Notes under the pieces: model-generated
Databases searched by the model: none
What the model was told of the DNA's origin: nothing
Seen by the model: only the letters and a program-made list of their open reading frames with translations
Made by a program: the position numbers and the translations under genes
Assembly: GCF_024347615.1 (NCBI RefSeq)
Contig: NZ_AP025509.1
Span: 1,674,001-1,738,000 of the forward strand
DNA from: Vibrio splendidus
GTDB lineage: Bacteria > Pseudomonadota > Gammaproteobacteria > Enterobacterales > Vibrionaceae
Direction: 5' to 3'
DNA length: 64,000 bases
Shown here: positions 6,480 through 16,246 of the stretch, in pieces
How the letters are laid out: each line of letters opens with the position of its first letter
How positions within the stretch are numbered: the first letter of the stretch is position 1

Positions 6480-6591
6480 AGTGATGCTGTTCACGCTTTC
6501 TTGACTCCCAATTCTGAACTAGGAATTTTTCCTAGTTATTCTAAGACCCTCTCTCATGCGGTCGATTTTTAGACTCCTTATTATTTCACGG
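6480..6591 (+). promoter_or_regulatory. uhpT control region: CRP-like site, candidate UhpA boxes, -10
   Basis: The CRP-like site GTGATGCTGTTCAC (6481-6494) is centred at 6487.5. The 17-bp palindrome CTAGGAATTTTTCCTAG (6519-6535), a second box CTAAGACC (6541-6548) and CTCATG (6553-6558) follow. TATTAT (6579-6584) is a -10 candidate giving a start near 6591, which puts the CRP centre near -103.5, the position known for E. coli uhpT. The same boxes with identical spacing occur before manA. Assigning them to UhpA is inference. Confidence 0.72.
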
Positions 6592-6659: not shown

Positions 6660-8054
6660 ATGTTAAAGTTCCTAGATCAGGTTCGAAAACCGACACTGGA
6701 TCTTCCGGTCGAAACCAGAAGAAAAATGTGGTTTAAACCCTTCCTACAATCTTACCTAGTCGTGTTCATTGGCTATCTAACCATGTATTTGATCCGTAAG
6801 AACTTCAATGTCGCGCAAAACGACATGATTTCTACTTATGGGTTATCAATGACGGATCTAGGTCTTATCGGTCTTGGTTTCTCAATTACTTATGGTATTG
6901 GTAAAACCGTCGTTTCCTATTACGCCGATGGTAAAAATACCAAACAGTTCCTGCCATTCATGCTTGTCCTTTCTGGTATTGCCATGTTGGGCTTCAGCTT
7001 CAGTATGGGTGGCGGCAGCGCTAGCTTATTCATGATGGTTGCCTTCTACGCACTGAGTGGTTTTTTCCAAAGTACGGGTGGCCCTTCAAGTTACTCAACC
7101 ATCACTAAATGGACGCCTCGCAATAAGCGTGGTTCATATTTAGGTCTTTGGAATATGTCACATAACGTGGGTGGTGCGGGTGCAGCTGGTGTTGCTCTGT
7201 TTGGCGCAAACTACCTATTTGATGGCAACGTAATTGGCATGTTTGTTTTCCCATCTATCATCGCGATTGTGGTTGGTTTCATTGGTATGCGCTTTGGTAA
7301 CGACTCTCCAGAAGCATACGGCTTAGGTACGGTTGAAGAGTTGTTTGATGAAGAAATTAGCGAAGAAGATACTATCGCTGAAGAAAATCAAATGACCAAG
7401 AAAGAGATCTTTGTTGAATACATTCTAAAAAACAAAGTGATCTGGTTACTCTGCTTCGCGAATATCTTTTTATACATTGTTCGTATCGGTATCGATCAAT
7501 GGTCTACCGTTTACGCGTATCAAGAGCTAGGTCTATCAAAGGAAACTGCGATTTCAGGCTTTACTCTGTTTGAAGTCGGTGCTCTGGTTGGTACATTGAT
7601 GTGGGGTTATTTATCAGACCTTGCGAACGGACGTCGTGCTTTAGTTGCTTGTGTATCGCTTGGATTGATTATTGTCTCTCTAGAGTTCTACCAAAATGCA
7701 ACGAGTGAGTTCATGTACCTAGCGTCACTATTCGTACTGGGCTTCCTAGTGTTCGGTCCTCAACTGTTGATTGGTGTTGCTGCAGTAGGTTTTGTACCTA
7801 AGAAAGCAATCAGTGTTGCTGACGGCGTGAAAGGCACATTTGCTTACCTAATTGGTGACAGCTTTGCCAAACTTGGTCTAGGTATGATTGCGGACGGAAC
7901 GCCAATTTTCGGCTTAACGGGTTGGAAGGGGACATTCGCAGCACTCGATACGTCAGCTGCCATTTGTATCGTGTTATTGCTATTCGTTGCGGTTGCGGAA
8001 GAGAAGAAGATTCGTCACGCGAAGAAGATGCACCTAGCGGCTCAAAACGCGTAA
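6660..8054 (+). CDS. uhpT: Hexose-6-phosphate:phosphate antiporter UhpT
   Basis: A 464-residue, 12-helix major facilitator (organophosphate:phosphate antiporter family) of the inner membrane, which imports glucose-6-, fructose-6- and mannose-6-phosphate in exchange for inorganic phosphate. Near-identity to E. coli UhpT (463 residues) is visible from the N-terminus ([19 protein letters not shown]) onward, including [34 protein letters not shown] and [20 protein letters not shown]. Unlike in E. coli, it lies upstream of uhpABC. It has its own control region and is followed by a terminator. Confidence 0.96.
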
Positions 8055-8201: not shown

Positions 8202-8810
8202 ATGATTAATGTTGCGCTTGTTGATGACCACGTCATTGTTCGTTCGGGCTTTGCTCAATTACTCAGTCTTGAAACTGATATTACGGTCGTGGGTGAATTC
8301 AACTCTGCGGCAGAAGCGCGCCTCGGATTGCCAAGTTGTCACCCTGATGTCGTTATCTTGGATATTTCAATGCAGGATGAAAGTGGCTTGAGCTTATTGG
8401 AAGAAATTCCATCAGGCATTGCCAGTATCATGCTGAGCGTGCATGACTCTCCGGCAATGGTTGAGAAGTCATTAGAGTTAGGAGCCAAAGGTTATCTCAG
8501 CAAGCGCTGCAGCCCAGATGAGTTAATCCAAGCCGTACACACGAGCGCAAATGGTGGCTGTTATCTCACGCCCGATATCGCTATAAAGCTTGCGACACCA
8601 ATGAAGAATAAAGCCTCTTTAAATCAACTCACCCGCAGAGAAAGCGAAGTGTGTCAGTTATTGGCAACGGGGCTCGATGTGAAATCTATCGCCGTTGAGC
8701 TAGGGGTTAGTCATAAAACGGTGCATGTACACCGTGCCAATGCGATGGACAAACTCAATGTTAAGAACAACGTTGAGTTAGCTAAATTGTTCACTCAAGA
8801 TCAGTACTAA
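8202..8810 (+). CDS. uhpA: UhpA response regulator (NarL/FixJ type)
   Basis: A 202-residue transcription factor activating hexose-phosphate uptake genes. The receiver domain (1-120) shows the acidic pair DDH near the N-terminus, the phospho-acceptor Asp in VVILDIS and the conserved Lys in KGYLSKR. The LuxR-type helix-turn-helix (about 138-195) contains [15 protein letters not shown] and [13 protein letters not shown]. It is the first gene of uhpABC; its stop codon overlaps the uhpB start by one base. Confidence 0.94.
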
Positions 8811-10306
8811 TGCGCTCCTATCTAGCCACTTCACTATGTGGGGTTTTTATGGCTGGCTGTGCATGGTTTTGTTTATGGGTTATTGCCTTCTATTTTATTA
8901 ATGACCCTGAGTTAGCCATTCTGCTTTTCCCATTCTCACTTCGATTGGGAATGACGCTGCACACTCGCAATCACTATTGGCCTGCTATCTATATTGCAGA
9001 GTGGGGACTTGCGATCGCGTTAGCGTTATTGCTTGATGAACCCCAATGGCTGACCATACTAGTCGCCAGTGGATTAAGTATTCCTGCCACTCTATTTGCC
9101 AAGCGTTATTACTATGGTGATCAAAATCGTCACTTGTTAGTGATGGCGAGCTTAATCATGGTTACCGCATTAATTAACGTTGCCGTGGTGGATTCTCATG
9201 TTCCAGCCGTTTACATGGTGTGGTTAGCGAGTATCACGGGTGGATTGATGCTGGTACCTATGTGTTATCTGGTCTGGAACTATCTATTCCAAAATAAGTG
9301 GGCGCCACTGAGCTCTTACTTAATCCATAATGTTGTAGAGTTCAAAATCCGTCACATCGCTTTATACAGTGTGTTGCTGGTGGCCAGTATTTTGATACAA
9401 ACCAGCTTGCCTGATGAACTAAGGCGCTTCGCCCCATTTTGTATGGCGATCCCTATTATCTTGCTGGCCGTACGTTACGGATGGCAAGGCGCTTTACTGG
9501 CGACCCTGTTAAACAGTGTTGCGCTGATTGCTGCTCATAGCGGAACGTCCAAACTCGAAATTACCGACTTACTCTTGTCTCTATCGGCTCAAACTATTAC
9601 CGGTATATTGCTGGGCCTTGCGGTTCAAAAGCAGAAAGATCTCAACTCCAAATTGCGAAGCGAGCTTTCCAGAAACCAAAACCTTTCACGCCAGCTAATA
9701 ACAGCTGAAGAGTCGGTTCGTCGTGATATTGCGCGTGAGCTGCATGATGAAATTGGCCAAAACATCACGGCAATTCGTACGCAGGCAAGCATTATTAAAC
9801 GTGTCGATGCGGCTGAGATGAGCGTTCGCTGTGCGGGGACGATTGAGTCATTGTCTTTGAATGTTTATGACACCACCAAACGTCTACTTACAAAACTAAG
9901 ACCTAAGATGTTGGACGATCTTGACCTAAAAGATTCTGTGGAACAGCTTATTCGAGAGATGGAGTTTTCGGATCATGGCGTTGATATCCAGTTAAATTGG
10001 CAAGGTGATTACTCGTGTTTGAGTGACACGCTCAAGGTCACTATCTTCAGGCTGTGCCAAGAATCCTTAAACAACGCCTCTAAATACGCCAACGCGAGCG
10101 AAATCAGAATTGAACTGATTCTAGGTGACCAGGCTTATCTTCAGGTATCAGATAATGGCATTGGTTTTACAGCGCAAGATCTTCTCAAAGGAATGGGGGT
10201 TCGCGGTATGCAAGAGCGTGTTCAGGCGCTCGGCGGCAAGATGACAATCAACGCTAATGGCTCGTCTTCGGGTACCAATATCAGCGTTACATTACCCAAA
10301 GTGTGA
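8810..10306 (+). CDS. uhpB: UhpB sensor histidine kinase
   Basis: A 498-residue membrane kinase that phosphorylates UhpA when UhpC senses external glucose-6-phosphate. The N-terminal half has about eight hydrophobic helices (MASE1-like). A HisKA_3 dimerisation domain follows, with the phospho-accepting His near residue 312 in RDIARELHDEIGQN, then an HATPase domain with NNASKYANAS, DNGIGF and GMGVRGMQERV. Coupled start with uhpA, and 4-base overlap with uhpC. Confidence 0.94.
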   Translation: MRSYLATSLCGVFMAGCAWFCLWVIAFYFINDPELAILLFPFSLRLGMTLHTRNHYWPAIYIAEWGLAIALALLLDEPQWLTILVASGLSIPATLFAKRYYYGDQNRHLLVMASLIMVTALINVAVVDSHVPAVYMVWLASITGGLMLVPMCYLVWNYLFQNKWAPLSSYLIHNVVEFKIRHIALYSVLLVASILIQTSLPDELRRFAPFCMAIPIILLAVRYGWQGALLATLLNSVALIAAHSGTSKLEITDLLLSLSAQTITGILLGLAVQKQKDLNSKLRSELSRNQNLSRQLITAEESVRRDIARELHDEIGQNITAIRTQASIIKRVDAAEMSVRCAGTIESLSLNVYDTTKRLLTKLRPKMLDDLDLKDSVEQLIREMEFSDHGVDIQLNWQGDYSCLSDTLKVTIFRLCQESLNNASKYANASEIRIELILGDQAYLQVSDNGIGFTAQDLLKGMGVRGMQERVQALGGKMTINANGSSSGTNISVTLPKV

Positions 10307-11655
10307 GAACGAATATGTTTGGATTTCTGCGCTCAACAACGTCCAAGAGTGATGCTCTGACAGATGATGAAGTCAATCAGAGTTATCGCTACTGGCGCCT
10401 CCACATCATGATAGGAATGTATGTCGGCTATGCAGGTTTTTACTTCACTCGTAAAACCTTTAATTATGCCGCGCCAGCCATGATCACCGACCTTGGTTTG
10501 GACAAAGGCGATATCGGCTTAATTGGCACGCTCTTTTATCTTTCTTATGGCTTATCGAAATTTATATCAGGCACGATATCGGATCGGTCGAACCCGCGTT
10601 ACTTCATGGGGCTCGGCCTAATCGCGACAGGTTTGATCAATATCGCGTTTGGCTTTTCTAGTTCGTTGGCGGCTTTTATCTCGCTGTGGGTACTGAACGC
10701 ATGGTTCCAAGGTTGGGGCTGGCCATCGTGTTCCAAGTTATTGACGACTTGGTATTCTCGCTCCGAAAGAGGCTTTCGCTGGGCTATATGGAATACAGCA
10801 CACAACGTTGGTGGGGCGCTAATTCCTATTCTCGTGGGTTATCTAACGCTGCAATTCAGTTGGCGGGCTGGGTTTATCTGGCCGGGTGTGATTGGTGTAT
10901 TTATCGGTCTTATCGTTTGCTGGCGCTTACGTGACAAGCCCACCACCATGGGACTCCCGACGGTAGGGAAGTGGCGCAGTGACCATCTAGAGTTGGCGCA
11001 AGAGAACCATGGACAAGGGTTAAGCTATCGAGAAATATTGAAAACCTATGTGTTCAGCAATAAGTACATTTGGTTGCTCGCCTTTAGCTATGTGCTGGTT
11101 TACATCGTAAGAACGGCGGTTAACGACTGGGGTAACTTATACTTAACCGAAGAACACAATTACAGTTTGATAAACGCCAACGCTGCCTTGTCTCTGTTTG
11201 AGATTGGCGGTTTCGTTGGTTCACTTGTTGCTGGGTGGGGCTCGGATAGGCTGTTTGGTGGCAACCGCGGTCCAATGAACATCTTGTTTGCCATCGGCAT
11301 ATTTCTTTCAGTTTCAGCATTGTGGTTAATGCCTTTAACCAACTTTGTGTTTCAAGCGGCTGGGCTGTTTTGTGTCGGCTTTTTTGTTTTTGGTCCTCAA
11401 ATGCTTATTGGCATGGCGGCGGCAGAATGCTCGCACAAAGACTCTGCTGGGGCGGCGACAGGTTTTGTTGGCTTGTTTGCTTACATGGGTGCAGCACTTT
11501 CTGGTTACCCATTAGCGCTCGTTCTAGAAACTTATGGCTGGAGTGGATTCTTCATTACCATCTCGACTTGTGCGGCCGTTATTGGCTTGCTGCTACTGCC
11601 TTTCCTACAAGCTCAATCACCTCAGAAAAGTGCAGAGGCTCGCTCTGGTTTTTAA
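10303..11655 (+). CDS. uhpC: UhpC hexose-phosphate sensor (UhpT-like)
   Basis: A 450-residue, 12-helix major facilitator homologue that serves as a sugar-phosphate receptor interacting with UhpB. It shares the family signature with UhpT (for example YAGFYFTRKTFNYAAPAM and FGPQMLIGMAAAE). Either GTG 10303, overlapping the uhpB stop as GTGA, or ATG 10315 could be the start; overlap favours the former. The following hairpin has arms GATAGCTGC (11675-11683) and GCAGCTATC (11705-11713), with a T-run 14 bases further on. Confidence 0.93.
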   Translation: MRTNMFGFLRSTTSKSDALTDDEVNQSYRYWRLHIMIGMYVGYAGFYFTRKTFNYAAPAMITDLGLDKGDIGLIGTLFYLSYGLSKFISGTISDRSNPRYFMGLGLIATGLINIAFGFSSSLAAFISLWVLNAWFQGWGWPSCSKLLTTWYSRSERGFRWAIWNTAHNVGGALIPILVGYLTLQFSWRAGFIWPGVIGVFIGLIVCWRLRDKPTTMGLPTVGKWRSDHLELAQENHGQGLSYREILKTYVFSNKYIWLLAFSYVLVYIVRTAVNDWGNLYLTEEHNYSLINANAALSLFEIGGFVGSLVAGWGSDRLFGGNRGPMNILFAIGIFLSVSALWLMPLTNFVFQAAGLFCVGFFVFGPQMLIGMAAAECSHKDSAGAATGFVGLFAYMGAALSGYPLALVLETYGWSGFFITISTCAAVIGLLLLPFLQAQSPQKSAEARSGF

Positions 11656-11674
11656 GGGGCTTCTTCGTCAATAA

Positions 11675-11731
11675 GATAGCTGCTAATGGTCCTCTGGTTA
11701 TTGTGCAGCTATCCTATCTTCAGCGTTTTTT
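11675..11731 (+). terminator. Probable terminator after uhpC
   Basis: GATAGCTGC (11675-11683) pairs with GCAGCTATC (11705-11713) around a 21-base loop. A T-run (GTTTTTTAT) starts only at about 11725, so this is a weaker candidate than the others in the block. Confidence 0.5.
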
Positions 11732-11747
11732 ATACGTAGCATTCAAA

Positions 11748-11826
11748 TGTGACTCTTTTCACGCTTTTCATCGTTCTCACCCGTTTCTAAGAATTTTTCC
11801 TATTGCGTCTAAGACCTCATCTCATG
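11748..11826 (+). promoter_or_regulatory. manA control region matching that of uhpT
   Basis: The CRP-like site TGTGACTCTTTTCACG (11748-11763) is followed by CTAAGAATTTTTCCTAT (11787-11803), CTAAGACC (11809-11816) and CTCATG (11821-11826). Measured from GTGA of the CRP-like site, the three downstream boxes lie at +38, +60 and +72, exactly as before uhpT. The -10 is less clear than at uhpT (TAGTCT at 11847 or slightly later). Confidence 0.72.
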
Positions 11827-11922
11827 TGGGTTCTAGCTGCTCTCTGTAGTCTTTCTAATTATTTACGTTATTAGAAATCAGCTCTCTGAATTGTGTTCAA
11901 AGAGCTCACTACGGAAAACGCC

Positions 11923-13128
11923 ATGTCACTCAGTCACTTCTCAGAACACTCATTTTTCCCAATGGAAAACACCATCCAAAATTATGCATGGGGGAGCATT
12001 TCTTCGATACGTGAGCTGTTTGGCTTTAAGAATGAGACACAAGAGCCGCAAGCGGAAGTTTGGATGGGAGCGCATCCGAAGGGTTGCTCAATGGTTAAGC
12101 TTGACCAACATTTGGTGCCTCTCTCTGAGCTGATTAACAAGAATAAACCCGCTTATCTATCAAGCGATATTGCGCAGGAGTTCGGTGAACTGCCGTTCTT
12201 GTTTAAGATCTTGGCTGCAGAAAAAGCTTTGTCTGTTCAGGTTCACCCAAACAAGCGCCAAGCTGAAATTGGCTTTGCTAGAGAAGAGCAAGCAAGAATC
12301 CCCCTAAACGCAGGGCACCGTAATTACAAAGACTCTAACCACAAACCTGAATTGGTTTACGCGATCACTGAATACCAAGCGATGAATGGCTTTCGAGAAT
12401 TCGATGAAATATTAGGTCTGTTCAGAAAGTTGGATTCGAGCGAGCTGGCTGGTTTGGTTGAAGAGTTTGGTAACCACCTTGATTCTCTAGGTTTAGAAGC
12501 ATTTTTCCGCGATCTGCTAACGCTAAATGACCAACGTAAACACCGAGCATTAGAGCAACTTCTGACTTACGCAGCATCTCATCAAGACCAAGCTGAGTTT
12601 GCTTTGGTTACTGAGCTTAGCCATCAGTACCCGAACGATATCGGTTTGTTTTGTGTTCTGCTGCTTAACTTGATCACACTAAAGCCAGGTGAAGCTATGT
12701 ATTTGAATGCGAACACTCCGCATGCTTACATTAAGGGAACCGGGCTTGAGATTATGGCAAATTCAGACAACGTGCTCCGAGCCGGTTTAACGCCAAAACA
12801 CATTGATGTCGCTGAGTTAGTCGCCTGCACAAAATTCACGCCAATTCCGTTCGAACGCTTGTTGTTGGCGCCCTCAAAACTGGGGCAATGTGATAACTAT
12901 GATATTCCTGTCAGTGATTTTGATTTCAATATCTTTCATCGCCCTCATCAAGAAGAAGTCATCACAAGCGGTGCTGAAATTTTAATGGCGATAGACGATG
13001 ATTTAACGTTGATGAGTCAGAAAGGTGAGCATTTAACCCTTACTAAAGGGCAATCGGTATTTATCCCAGCCTATATTGGCCATTATGAATTGAGCAGCAA
13101 CGGGCGAGTGGCTAGGGCGTTTAATTAG
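11923..13128 (+). CDS. manA: Mannose-6-phosphate isomerase, class I
   Basis: A 401-residue cytoplasmic zinc enzyme interconverting mannose-6-phosphate and fructose-6-phosphate. Type I motifs are present: NYAWGS, the zinc-site segment QVHPNKRQAEIGF, NHKPELVYAI and LNANTPHAYIKGTG. The ATG at 11923 is preferred over an upstream in-frame GTG (11893) because neither has a strong ribosome-binding site and the extra residues are not family-like. The promoter module shared with uhpT ties it to imported hexose phosphates, since UhpT can bring in mannose-6-phosphate. Confidence 0.93.
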   Translation: MSLSHFSEHSFFPMENTIQNYAWGSISSIRELFGFKNETQEPQAEVWMGAHPKGCSMVKLDQHLVPLSELINKNKPAYLSSDIAQEFGELPFLFKILAAEKALSVQVHPNKRQAEIGFAREEQARIPLNAGHRNYKDSNHKPELVYAITEYQAMNGFREFDEILGLFRKLDSSELAGLVEEFGNHLDSLGLEAFFRDLLTLNDQRKHRALEQLLTYAASHQDQAEFALVTELSHQYPNDIGLFCVLLLNLITLKPGEAMYLNANTPHAYIKGTGLEIMANSDNVLRAGLTPKHIDVAELVACTKFTPIPFERLLLAPSKLGQCDNYDIPVSDFDFNIFHRPHQEEVITSGAEILMAIDDDLTLMSQKGEHLTLTKGQSVFIPAYIGHYELSSNGRVARAFN

Positions 13129-13330
13129 GGGAATAGCTGTCGTCTAACATTAGAAAGCTTTCGGGCTTTGGGTATGCGGTAAAGTCGTAGAGATATTAGT
13201 AAGAATGAACATTTCATAACAATAAGAGCTCTTCGAATCAGAAAACAAACGTTTTCATAGGTTGACTAATAAATGCAAACTGAAACAATAAGTCGCATTT
13301 ATAGAAGTGTGTTGATCTAAAGGAAATTTG

Positions 13331-16246
13331 ATGAGCTCTTATTCTCACGTTCGCAGTTACGCCAGTTTATTCAGTGTCTTATCGTTGGCGGTTACGTCAG
13401 CTCCGAGTGCCGCTGATATATCAACAACGCCCGTCATTGGTGGCGTTTTTAGCTCCAGTGAAGTGTTGAAAAATGAGGTGCTTTCAAGCCTAAGTTATTC
13501 AGCCAAACTCACTCGTGATGCAGCTCTTTTCACGATTGGTGGCGTTACATTAGATGCGTATATTCTCGCTCTCCCTTTAGATGTCAAAACAAAAGCCAGA
13601 GTCGTTGCTCAGTTATCTAACCCGACGTACTCAATTCCTCTGGGTTATTTTCTCTATAGTTATTACGACCGCTATTCAGGCTTGGGCAGTGAAGATGTGT
13701 TCAAATCTTACTTGTCGACGGTTTATGATAAGCAGGCGCTAAAGGGCTTTGAACATAGCCTCTATCATGTTGGAGATAAGCCAACCTCAGAGCATCACGA
13801 GCCAGATACCTCGACTGAAGCAACGGGACATCATGAAGGTATTCGTATCGATGAACAGTTCATTGCTAACATGGTGGTTATCTACGATGCGTTATTCGAA
13901 ATTGGTGTTTGGCAGGATATGGACACGCTCCCTGCGAATTACACATACTTAACCAATAGCCCTGAAGATCTAGCGATCATCGCTCAGATTCAACCGATCA
14001 TCGTTGATTTGATCGGTAAAGCGGCATTGGGAATGGATGAGGGTGACATGAAGTCTGCAATGTTAGCGATTGCAGAAGATGGCAAACCAGAAAACGCTGA
14101 TAAGCCGAATAACAAAGCACAAGCCCTTACCATCACTCTCATTGATTTTGTACGCTTAAACTTGCTTAAAGCCTACCGACAGTTTGTGTTTAAAGAAGAA
14201 CGTGCAGAAGCGCTCGATGATTGGATGCAACAAGCGTTCAGTGACCAGCCTGATGCGCTAATACAATTCTTAGAATCCCAACAGCACAAACGTTTTGCGG
14301 TCCAAGTGACCGTCGATGGTTTACAGCAAGGGTTGCTCGAAGGCTTGGTCGATGAAAATTCACCTTTCATTTCGGTTGCTTATCAGAATCATAAAAACCG
14401 AGCGCAATATAAACCTCAGCTAGAAAAAGTGATTGAACCTGAACACCAACAACAGGTGAGGTTCATGGAAGTTCTGTCAGAACAAACCTACCGTGATCCG
14501 AATTATCTTCCGTTCTTCAAAAAACTTTATCAAGAGAATCGAAATAATATAAGCCGAGTGGGTATCTCTTCTACTCCGACGATCAGCGTACGCAACCTAC
14601 CGATCATTAAAACGGGCGCAAAAGTATCGGGGCAAGGTGGCACTGGTATCCCTAATTTCCACTTTGTTGACCGAGAGATCGACCGAGCGTATTACTTCTT
14701 CGGTAATGATGCCCTACAGCTGGATGTGTTGATGGCAAACAACAAGGTGCAAACCATGTTTGATCGCCTTGATTACCTCAAAACGCTGAACTGCAACGCT
14801 CAATATGATTGGAATGCTCACACCACTTACGATGGGCTAGTAAACCTAGGTTTGGGTGAGTCACTGCGTGATTATGGTGAGAAACGCTGCGTTAAAGAGC
14901 TTCAAGAACGTTCAGAAGTCGAAGTGGTTTTGCAAGAAAAGCGTCAAGCCTTGATTGAAGATATTGAAGCGTATCAGTCTATATCTGGCTTTGATTTTTT
15001 CACTAAGTTTTCAAAGAGAGCTCAGGTTAAACAATTGATTACTCAGTTTGCCGAGTTAGATGGAAAAGGGATGCCCGACTACACCTTGGTTTATAATCCA
15101 TGGCCGGATCACTTCGCACACTTTACCGGTCCTTTTAGTGACGAAATTCTGATGCCGACTGGAGAGCTTAACCGACTGGACTATTGGATTCGCCAGATTG
15201 AAGCGACCTACCGCAGTGCCGGCGTTTACGATAAAACGCTATGGGGCATGGCAGGAGATCATGGTTTAACGCCAGTGTTCTACGCGCTCAACCCCGAAAA
15301 GCAGGTATTCGAAGGCTTACAAGCAGAGCTAGAGTATCCAATTGTGGTTAAGAAAATATCTTCAGACGAGGGGGAAGGACCTAAAATCACCAATGCCCTA
15401 AGCTACCCAAGCTCGAAAGAATTGGATGTGGTGGTCGCCTCGACGGCTGGTGGTAACTTCATGATGGATTTCTTTAATTCGGCTCAAGGGTGGCAGGTTC
15501 AGCCTGTTTACCAAGAACTCACGCAGTGGTCTCCGATTGCAGCGTCAGCTGGTCAGAACATAGACATCATTAATCAGATAGCGCAACGCTTGCCTGAAAG
15601 TCTTGATTATATGGTCGTAAGAGAAAGCACATGTGATCAACAACGTTGCGCTGTTCGTGTGATTGGCAACCGTGATTTAAAACGGGTCGATGAATTGATC
15701 ACACGTGAAGGTGACAAGCTTTTCTATGAGTCATTGGAAGACAATCGAGCGCCGATTTTGCTCAATACGCAAAGGTTAAATCCATACCTAGCATCACCAA
15801 GCGAAGCTGATTTTTCACAATATTCTCAATTGGTCGACAAGTGTATTAACCGAGCGGTTAAAGCGGATGTGACAACGTGGTGTAGCAGTGCTGAGTGGAC
15901 TTCATTGACGCAGCCAACACCTCGACCAGATTCAGTGAATCAACTGTCTAATATCTACCTTGAAGATAGGGCTGGCACGGTTAACTTGTTCCCTAAAGCG
16001 GGAATTGGCTACAACACCAAGGTACCGGGGCGTCATGCTGGTGAGGATTACTTAGAGAAAGATGCCTTCATCGGATTCTGGGGAGCGCCAATTGGCGATA
16101 AGTCTCAGCAATTGAAAATCGAAGCTAACGGATCTTTAGCGCCAACGCTGTTTGAGTATTTGACCGGAGAACCTGTGGTCGAAGGCGAGAACGGTTGGGG
16201 TTTTCCGTCGTTGATTGAGAAATTAGATATTTCAAGCGCGCGCTAA
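13331..16246 (+). CDS. Large secreted alkaline-phosphatase-superfamily protein
   Basis: A 971-residue protein with a signal peptide (about 1-29, ending SAPSAA). The C-terminal half resembles type I phosphodiesterase/nucleotide pyrophosphatase folds: YNPWPDHFAHFTG and the metal-binding GDHGLTPV (Asp643, His644), then GRHAGEDYLEKDAFIGFWG near the end. The first 400 residues are helical and unrecognised. Substrate unknown; hydrolysis of a phosphate ester or diester is inference. ATG 13331 follows an aaagga ribosome-binding site. Its size is well above that of typical alkaline phosphatases. No Pho box was recognised upstream. Confidence 0.7.
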   Translation: MSSYSHVRSYASLFSVLSLAVTSAPSAADISTTPVIGGVFSSSEVLKNEVLSSLSYSAKLTRDAALFTIGGVTLDAYILALPLDVKTKARVVAQLSNPTYSIPLGYFLYSYYDRYSGLGSEDVFKSYLSTVYDKQALKGFEHSLYHVGDKPTSEHHEPDTSTEATGHHEGIRIDEQFIANMVVIYDALFEIGVWQDMDTLPANYTYLTNSPEDLAIIAQIQPIIVDLIGKAALGMDEGDMKSAMLAIAEDGKPENADKPNNKAQALTITLIDFVRLNLLKAYRQFVFKEERAEALDDWMQQAFSDQPDALIQFLESQQHKRFAVQVTVDGLQQGLLEGLVDENSPFISVAYQNHKNRAQYKPQLEKVIEPEHQQQVRFMEVLSEQTYRDPNYLPFFKKLYQENRNNISRVGISSTPTISVRNLPIIKTGAKVSGQGGTGIPNFHFVDREIDRAYYFFGNDALQLDVLMANNKVQTMFDRLDYLKTLNCNAQYDWNAHTTYDGLVNLGLGESLRDYGEKRCVKELQERSEVEVVLQEKRQALIEDIEAYQSISGFDFFTKFSKRAQVKQLITQFAELDGKGMPDYTLVYNPWPDHFAHFTGPFSDEILMPTGELNRLDYWIRQIEATYRSAGVYDKTLWGMAGDHGLTPVFYALNPEKQVFEGLQAELEYPIVVKKISSDEGEGPKITNALSYPSSKELDVVVASTAGGNFMMDFFNSAQGWQVQPVYQELTQWSPIAASAGQNIDIINQIAQRLPESLDYMVVRESTCDQQRCAVRVIGNRDLKRVDELITREGDKLFYESLEDNRAPILLNTQRLNPYLASPSEADFSQYSQLVDKCINRAVKADVTTWCSSAEWTSLTQPTPRPDSVNQLSNIYLEDRAGTVNLFPKAGIGYNTKVPGRHAGEDYLEKDAFIGFWGAPIGDKSQQLKIEANGSLAPTLFEYLTGEPVVEGENGWGFPSLIEKLDISSAR

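Follow-up and report, generated by a model that had tools for sequence, protein, structure and literature searches.

The promoter of the uhp-linked manA gene of V. splendidus is very probably a second promoter of the uhp locus that is activated by UhpA and CRP; to judge from the promoter sequences, sugar-phosphate import and use in this marine group of Vibrio are probably switched on together by a single external signal. The copy of the uhpT control module that precedes manA is complete, stands in the same register as the original, is conserved among relatives and is specific within the genome. To our knowledge, UhpA is usually described with a single target, uhpT. Two published accounts are consistent with this (PMC5352689; PMC11077982), and no link between UhpA and manA was found in the literature at the level of titles and abstract openings. 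If true, the UhpA system would become a small regulon, its second target being metabolic and having the same promoter architecture, and the mannose-6-phosphate route would gain an inducible isomerase of its own; the manA promoter would be an extension of a one-target system, made from known parts.

The uhp locus and its manA gene

The window, which is the whole stretch of 64,000 nucleotides analysed here, contains the following genes of the locus:

6660–8054, + strand: uhpT, hexose-6-phosphate:phosphate antiporter (NCBIfam NF007107)
8202–8810, + strand: uhpA, response regulator (NF007685, above cut-off; 65% identical to E. coli UhpA)
8810–10306, + strand: uhpB, sensor kinase/phosphatase (NF008649)
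10303–11655, + strand: uhpC, glucose-6-phosphate receptor (NF008661)
11923–13128, + strand: manA, predicted class I mannose-6-phosphate isomerase (TIGR00218, Pfam PMI_typeI_cat)

The recognition region of UhpA is near-identical to that of E. coli, with KTVHVHRAN unchanged. manA is the gene adjoining uhpC, on the same strand. Its product is predicted to have the catalytic domain of type I phosphomannose isomerases, as both PF20511 and PF20512 were found, and it scores 307.7 bits against TIGR00218 (cut-off 116.2) and 438.3 against the narrower NF011710, which is below the cut-off of 571 for that family.

Three class I manA genes are present in the 5.88 Mb genome, the uhp-linked one being 50% and 58% identical to the two others. 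Of these others (L116 and L118, at ~758 kb and ~1870 kb of C2), one comes after a glycerate kinase gene and one is flanked by EIIC genes of the fructose-type PTS. Given this PTS-flanked manA elsewhere in the genome, a separate manA for each uptake route makes sense; the genes present would suit a shared-out task, with one manA beside the PTS, for mannose-6-phosphate made on import, and one beside UhpT, for mannose-6-phosphate imported directly.

Downstream of manA, positions 13328–16246 encode a type I phosphodiesterase-like protein of 972 amino acids (PF01663); in Splendidus-type relatives where this gene was seen it lies behind manA or upstream of uhpT, and no UhpA module belonging to it was detected by profile search of the source genome. 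A terminator between uhpC and manA was considered and rejected: a hairpin is possible at 11671–11717, but its z is only -1.9 and there is no immediate U-run.

A copy of the uhpT control module before manA

The control elements of the uhpT promoter are:

6480–6495, + strand: CRP-like site AGTGATGCTGTTCACG, read directly, in the same register as at E. coli uhpT; its centre lies 103.5 bp before the predicted start
6519–6535, + strand: putative UhpA box I, the palindrome CTAGGAATTTTTCCTAG with arms CTAGGAA and TTCCTAG
6541–6558, + strand: putative UhpA box II, CTAAGACC....CTCATG (sub-blocks CTAAGACC at 6541–6548 and CTCATG at 6553–6558), beginning 22 bp after the start of box I
6579–6584, + strand: -10 hexamer TATTAT, at +98

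Those of the manA promoter are:

11748–11763, + strand: CRP-like site TGTGACTCTTTTCACG, read directly and matched by the profile described below
11787–11803, + strand: putative UhpA box I, CTAAGAATTTTTCCTAT, an imperfect palindrome that shares 15 of 17 positions with box I of uhpT
11809–11826, + strand: putative UhpA box II, CTAAGACC....CTCATG (sub-blocks CTAAGACC at 11809–11816 and CTCATG at 11821–11826)
11847–11852, + strand: -10 hexamer TAGTCT, at +98; weaker than the uhpT hexamer

The initial annotation had proposed that four blocks are common to 6480–6558 and 11748–11826, and direct reading of both stretches found all of them. With the register counted from the G of GTGA in the CRP site, the block starts at +38, +60 and +72 are identical in the two promoters, as had been claimed, and the distance between the copies, put at about 5.3 kb, was measured as 5268 bp. 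The -10 hexamer at +98 is a fifth common element that the four blocks had not included; relatives have it in this register too. Transcription is predicted to start at ~6591 for uhpT and ~11859 for manA. The -35 position of manA, 17 bp upstream of its -10, reads ATGTGG, which by eye is a poor match to the consensus, as expected of an activator-dependent promoter. The manA promoter has the CRP spacing, both UhpA boxes and a -10 without a good -35, in a genome that encodes UhpA.

The same arrangement is found in the E. coli K-12 uhpT promoter, which aligns without gaps: GTGA at 0, CTAAGAAATTTTCCAGG at +38, CCTGGACG at +60, CTCAGGC at +72 and TACAAT at +98, with the CRP centre at -103.5 when counted from the -10. 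This promoter shares 36 of 54 block positions with the manA copy of L012. In EHEC, the CRP inverted repeat of uhpT is reported to be centred at -103, with the UhpA site 30 bp downstream and UhpA essential (PMC5352689).

Several comparisons addressed the specificity of the match. When the 79-mer of uhpT was slid ungapped along the 64-kb window, the best other match fell at 11748, where 52 of 79 positions agree; the runner-up had 40, and 100 sequences of 64 kb simulated with a first-order Markov model peaked at 41. The box I motif CTARGAATTTTTCCTA occurs with no mismatches at the uhpT and manA sites and nowhere else in the genome; with up to two mismatches there are seven genome matches versus eight for a backward-read control, so the short box says little once mismatches are allowed. 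A sequence-only profile was built from 29 uhpT promoters, that of E. coli and 28 taken from the 38 named promoters that do not belong to the Splendidus/Aliivibrio group; they align gap-free over 112 columns, and no manA promoter is among them. In the 5.88 Mb source genome this profile found two significant sites, uhpT (E 5.5e-18) and manA (E 2.8e-16), and no further copy of the module; the third match had an E of 0.365 and covered model positions 33–73 only.

Distribution and conservation of the manA module

A strict pattern, GAATTTTTCCTA-gap-TAAGACC, was searched for in 296 Vibrionaceae genomes with gaps of 2 to 10 nt permitted; 33 of them contain it, each time with a gap of 7 nt. UhpA matches at E 1e-60 or better were found in 109 of the 296, including 32 of the 33 with the strict pattern. 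We examined 101 of these 109 UhpA loci (100 plus the window), taking a position-weight score of more than 12 bits to define a module. uhpT was found at 95 of the 101 loci and is preceded by the module at 94 of 95, a count that is partly by construction since many of those lineages went into the profile. In seven genomes the profile match starts after the CRP site, from model positions 13–15 onward.

Among the genomes covered, the copy at manA was seen in Splendidus-type Vibrio and certain Aliivibrio-type genomes and nowhere else. In these relatives the module is kept at both uhpT and manA, which answers in the affirmative the check for conservation at both genes that the initial annotation had proposed. 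Where UhpA is at least 95% identical, all 27 loci have the module at manA; where UhpA is 90–93% identical, two of four do, the other two having no manA in the stretch. At 17 loci with UhpA 81–85% identical, manA (57–65% identical) lies behind uhpC and the module is absent, so that manA can belong to the uhp locus without it. Apart from G043 (see below), the other uhpA loci had no manA within the fetched stretch, which in some cases was cut short by the end of the contig. Of the 21 uhp-linked manA genes in the named genomes, 11 have the module; the carriers are V. splendidus (three), V. tasmaniensis, V. lentus, V. crassostreae, V. methylphosphonaticus, two more Vibrio, Aliivibrio sifiae and one Aliivibrio species.

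Other arrangements were also seen. In another genus, manA genes of 48–49% identity lie upstream of uhpT (G043, L169; 48%, this manA showing no module) or upstream of a uhpT-type module (G048, L288), and they possibly represent a separate association of manA with uhp. Two uhp loci are on contigs that have the length of known plasmids and nearly or exactly their uhpA coordinates, namely L193 (G225 contig 3, 94062 bases), which matches NZ_AP025474.1 of V. cortegadensis and has manA, and L208 (G231 contig 3, 160294 bases), which matches NZ_AP018682.1 of V. casei and in which no manA was seen; the uhp locus can therefore be plasmid-borne.

The position of manA directly behind uhpC, on the same strand, raises the alternative that the module is bound but adds little, most manA transcript coming from read-through of uhpABC or uhpT, and the 17 module-free loci, where manA follows uhpC after 103–124 nt, fit such an arrangement. 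Where the module is present, however, the gap is longer, at 215–302 nt in 28 loci (267 nt in the window, the module lying inside it) and 3434 nt in one. That one, G049, has kept the module adjoining manA across its 3.4-kb gap, and the boxes are conserved relative to the spacers (see below). We consider it improbable that read-through is the main source of manA expression, and favour activation at the module itself.

The 24 distinct manA modules (from 29 loci) differ, per pair and column, by 0.032 in the core boxes versus 0.233 in the spacers, and none of 20000 random column sets was as conserved as the core boxes. The corresponding values for uhpT of the same genomes are 0.051 and 0.159, with seven of 20000 sets as conserved; these counts come from related sequences and are not probabilities. 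Likewise, the uhpT and manA copies of the 11 named genomes are identical at 48–53 of 54 block positions and at 15–23 of 54 spacer positions. The -10 is more variable at manA than at uhpT (mean pairwise difference 0.146 versus 0.029), which is a point against strong constraint on the manA -10.

The persistence of boxes amid diverged spacers over these 24 modules argues against the manA copy being a functionless relic of promoter duplication, as does the weakening of the module in two genomes where manA is broken or lost. In G092, manA is in two pieces and the profile E is 1.1e-13 compared with ~1e-16 in relatives; in G061 the weakened module (E 6.1e-13) has altered CRP and boxes; neither manA nor any uhp gene was matched in the fetched 12 kb, where by eye just the leader of manA and several codons remain, and the genome has no UhpA match. 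This joint decay concerns two cases and carries no statistical test. On the other side, the uhpT and manA copies within Aliivibrio resemble each other closely, with 70 and 73 of 102 positions shared in the two comparisons, and G053, the sole strict-pattern genome with no UhpA match at E 1e-60, has retained the manA module; uhpT, uhpA and uhpB were absent from the two stretches of G053 that were examined, which lie 26 kb apart. Taken together, we regard a relic as very improbable and a functional manA module as the better reading. A complete uhpT promoter module was also seen in G053 (L161, 8558–9191), directly before an ORF that by eye is transposase-like.

The module at manA may have arisen by duplication, transfer or convergence, and it was either gained in the Splendidus/Aliivibrio-type genomes or lost in the type represented by the 17 loci. 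In a manA tree of 47 rows, from which G092 and G175 (manA in two pieces) and G049 (cut by the stretch end) were omitted, 26 Splendidus-type copies group together (100/97); the tree gave no firm placement for the sole Aliivibrio-type copy (G044) or for the manA of L118. We put at even chances the scenario in which one lineage of Vibrionaceae widened the UhpA importer switch to import plus catabolism, the manA paralogue that already stood behind uhpC having received a complete uhpT control region of ~105 bp. The 17 module-free loci are still extant, so that the states before and after can be compared directly.

Proposed regulation and comparison with known systems

UhpT carries mannose-6-phosphate, and ManA converts mannose-6-phosphate to fructose-6-phosphate. 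From the promoter architecture we infer that UhpA and CRP occupy the manA promoter, that glucose-6-phosphate induces it and that there is a metabolic reason for this. External glucose-6-phosphate would be sensed by UhpC, and UhpB would then phosphorylate UhpA, a chain described in this order (external glucose-6-phosphate, UhpC, UhpB, UhpA) for Salmonella (PMC11077982). In both promoters UhpA would occupy the two boxes, I and II, which together span roughly -72 to -32; CRP-cAMP at -103.5 would assist UhpA under glucose scarcity; and RNA polymerase would initiate ~7 bp past a -10 hexamer with no good -35 upstream of it. The importer UhpT and the isomerase ManA would thereby be induced jointly, with the consequence that imported mannose-6-phosphate would enter glycolysis as fructose-6-phosphate and not pile up. 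The co-activation of uhpT and manA by UhpA and CRP that was first suggested from the window is supported, at the level of sequence, by the conservation of the module, by its E. coli register and by the fact that a profile of uhpT promoters alone finds manA.

A regulator of the NarL type other than UhpA might instead use the boxes, at manA or at both genes. This idea draws on profile matches of intermediate strength, which identified paralogous UhpABC' systems; their UhpA' proteins are ~50% identical to UhpA, and a very similar palindrome stands at their own loci, before uhpC' or the gene of a substrate-binding protein. Against it, the box is tied to uhpT across the Vibrionaceae (94 of 95 uhpT genes at uhpA loci) and matches that of E. 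coli uhpT, of which UhpA is the activator; in addition, the source genome (G000) has a single UhpA match at E 1e-60 and no afu-type profile site. Of the alternatives weighed here we find this the least credible, and we retain UhpA as the probable regulator of manA.

Loci with a UhpA-type palindrome, a box II-like stretch and a -10 before uhpC' or an afuA-like gene are L152–L156, L158, L159, L272, L274, L275, L277–L286, L289 and L290. The substrate-binding protein of L155 is a close relative of AfuA (PDB 4r72–4r75), and the other loci were called afuA-like by eye; AfuA is described as a sugar-phosphate binding protein (PMC4546632). These loci are likely to form a second box family, for ABC import of hexose phosphates. 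UhpA-type boxes thus do serve further genes besides uhpT, presumably controlled by paralogues of UhpA, and manA is not the only non-uhpT gene to have one in its promoter.

For UhpA proper, no third target in the Vibrionaceae was found among the placed matches listed at E 1e-12 or better, all of which lie before uhpT, manA or remnants; at the G048 site 361 bases of contig follow downstream and the gene is unreadable. The survey of more than 40 genomes ran with stricter filters, by which weak targets can be missed. The weaker matches that were fetched lie mostly at uhpC' or afuA-like genes, G135 and G206 aside, and one in G060 lies before a 70% identical uhpT. The spacing conserved between E. 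coli and Vibrio gives a working consensus for the UhpA box of approximately CTAGGAATTTTTCCTAG, 5 bp, CTAAGNCC-N4-CTCANG, which can be used to find more targets.

Three known arrangements can be set beside the manA promoter. The AfuA-linked UhpABC' systems, which occur in certain Photobacterium-type and Vibrio genomes, resemble it in having a UhpA-type palindrome, a box II-like stretch and a -10 before genes other than uhpT, but differ in having their own regulator, other target genes and, in most, no match to the CRP part. The uhpC-manA loci of the V. harveyi, V. diabolicus, V. nereis and V. europaeus type have a related manA (57–65% identical) behind uhpC, but lack a UhpA/CRP module before it. 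The E. coli uhpT promoter has the CRP site, box I, box II and -10 at the same spacing as both uhpT and manA of V. splendidus; the box and -10 sequences vary in detail, and the second V. splendidus copy is placed to drive an unrelated gene, manA.
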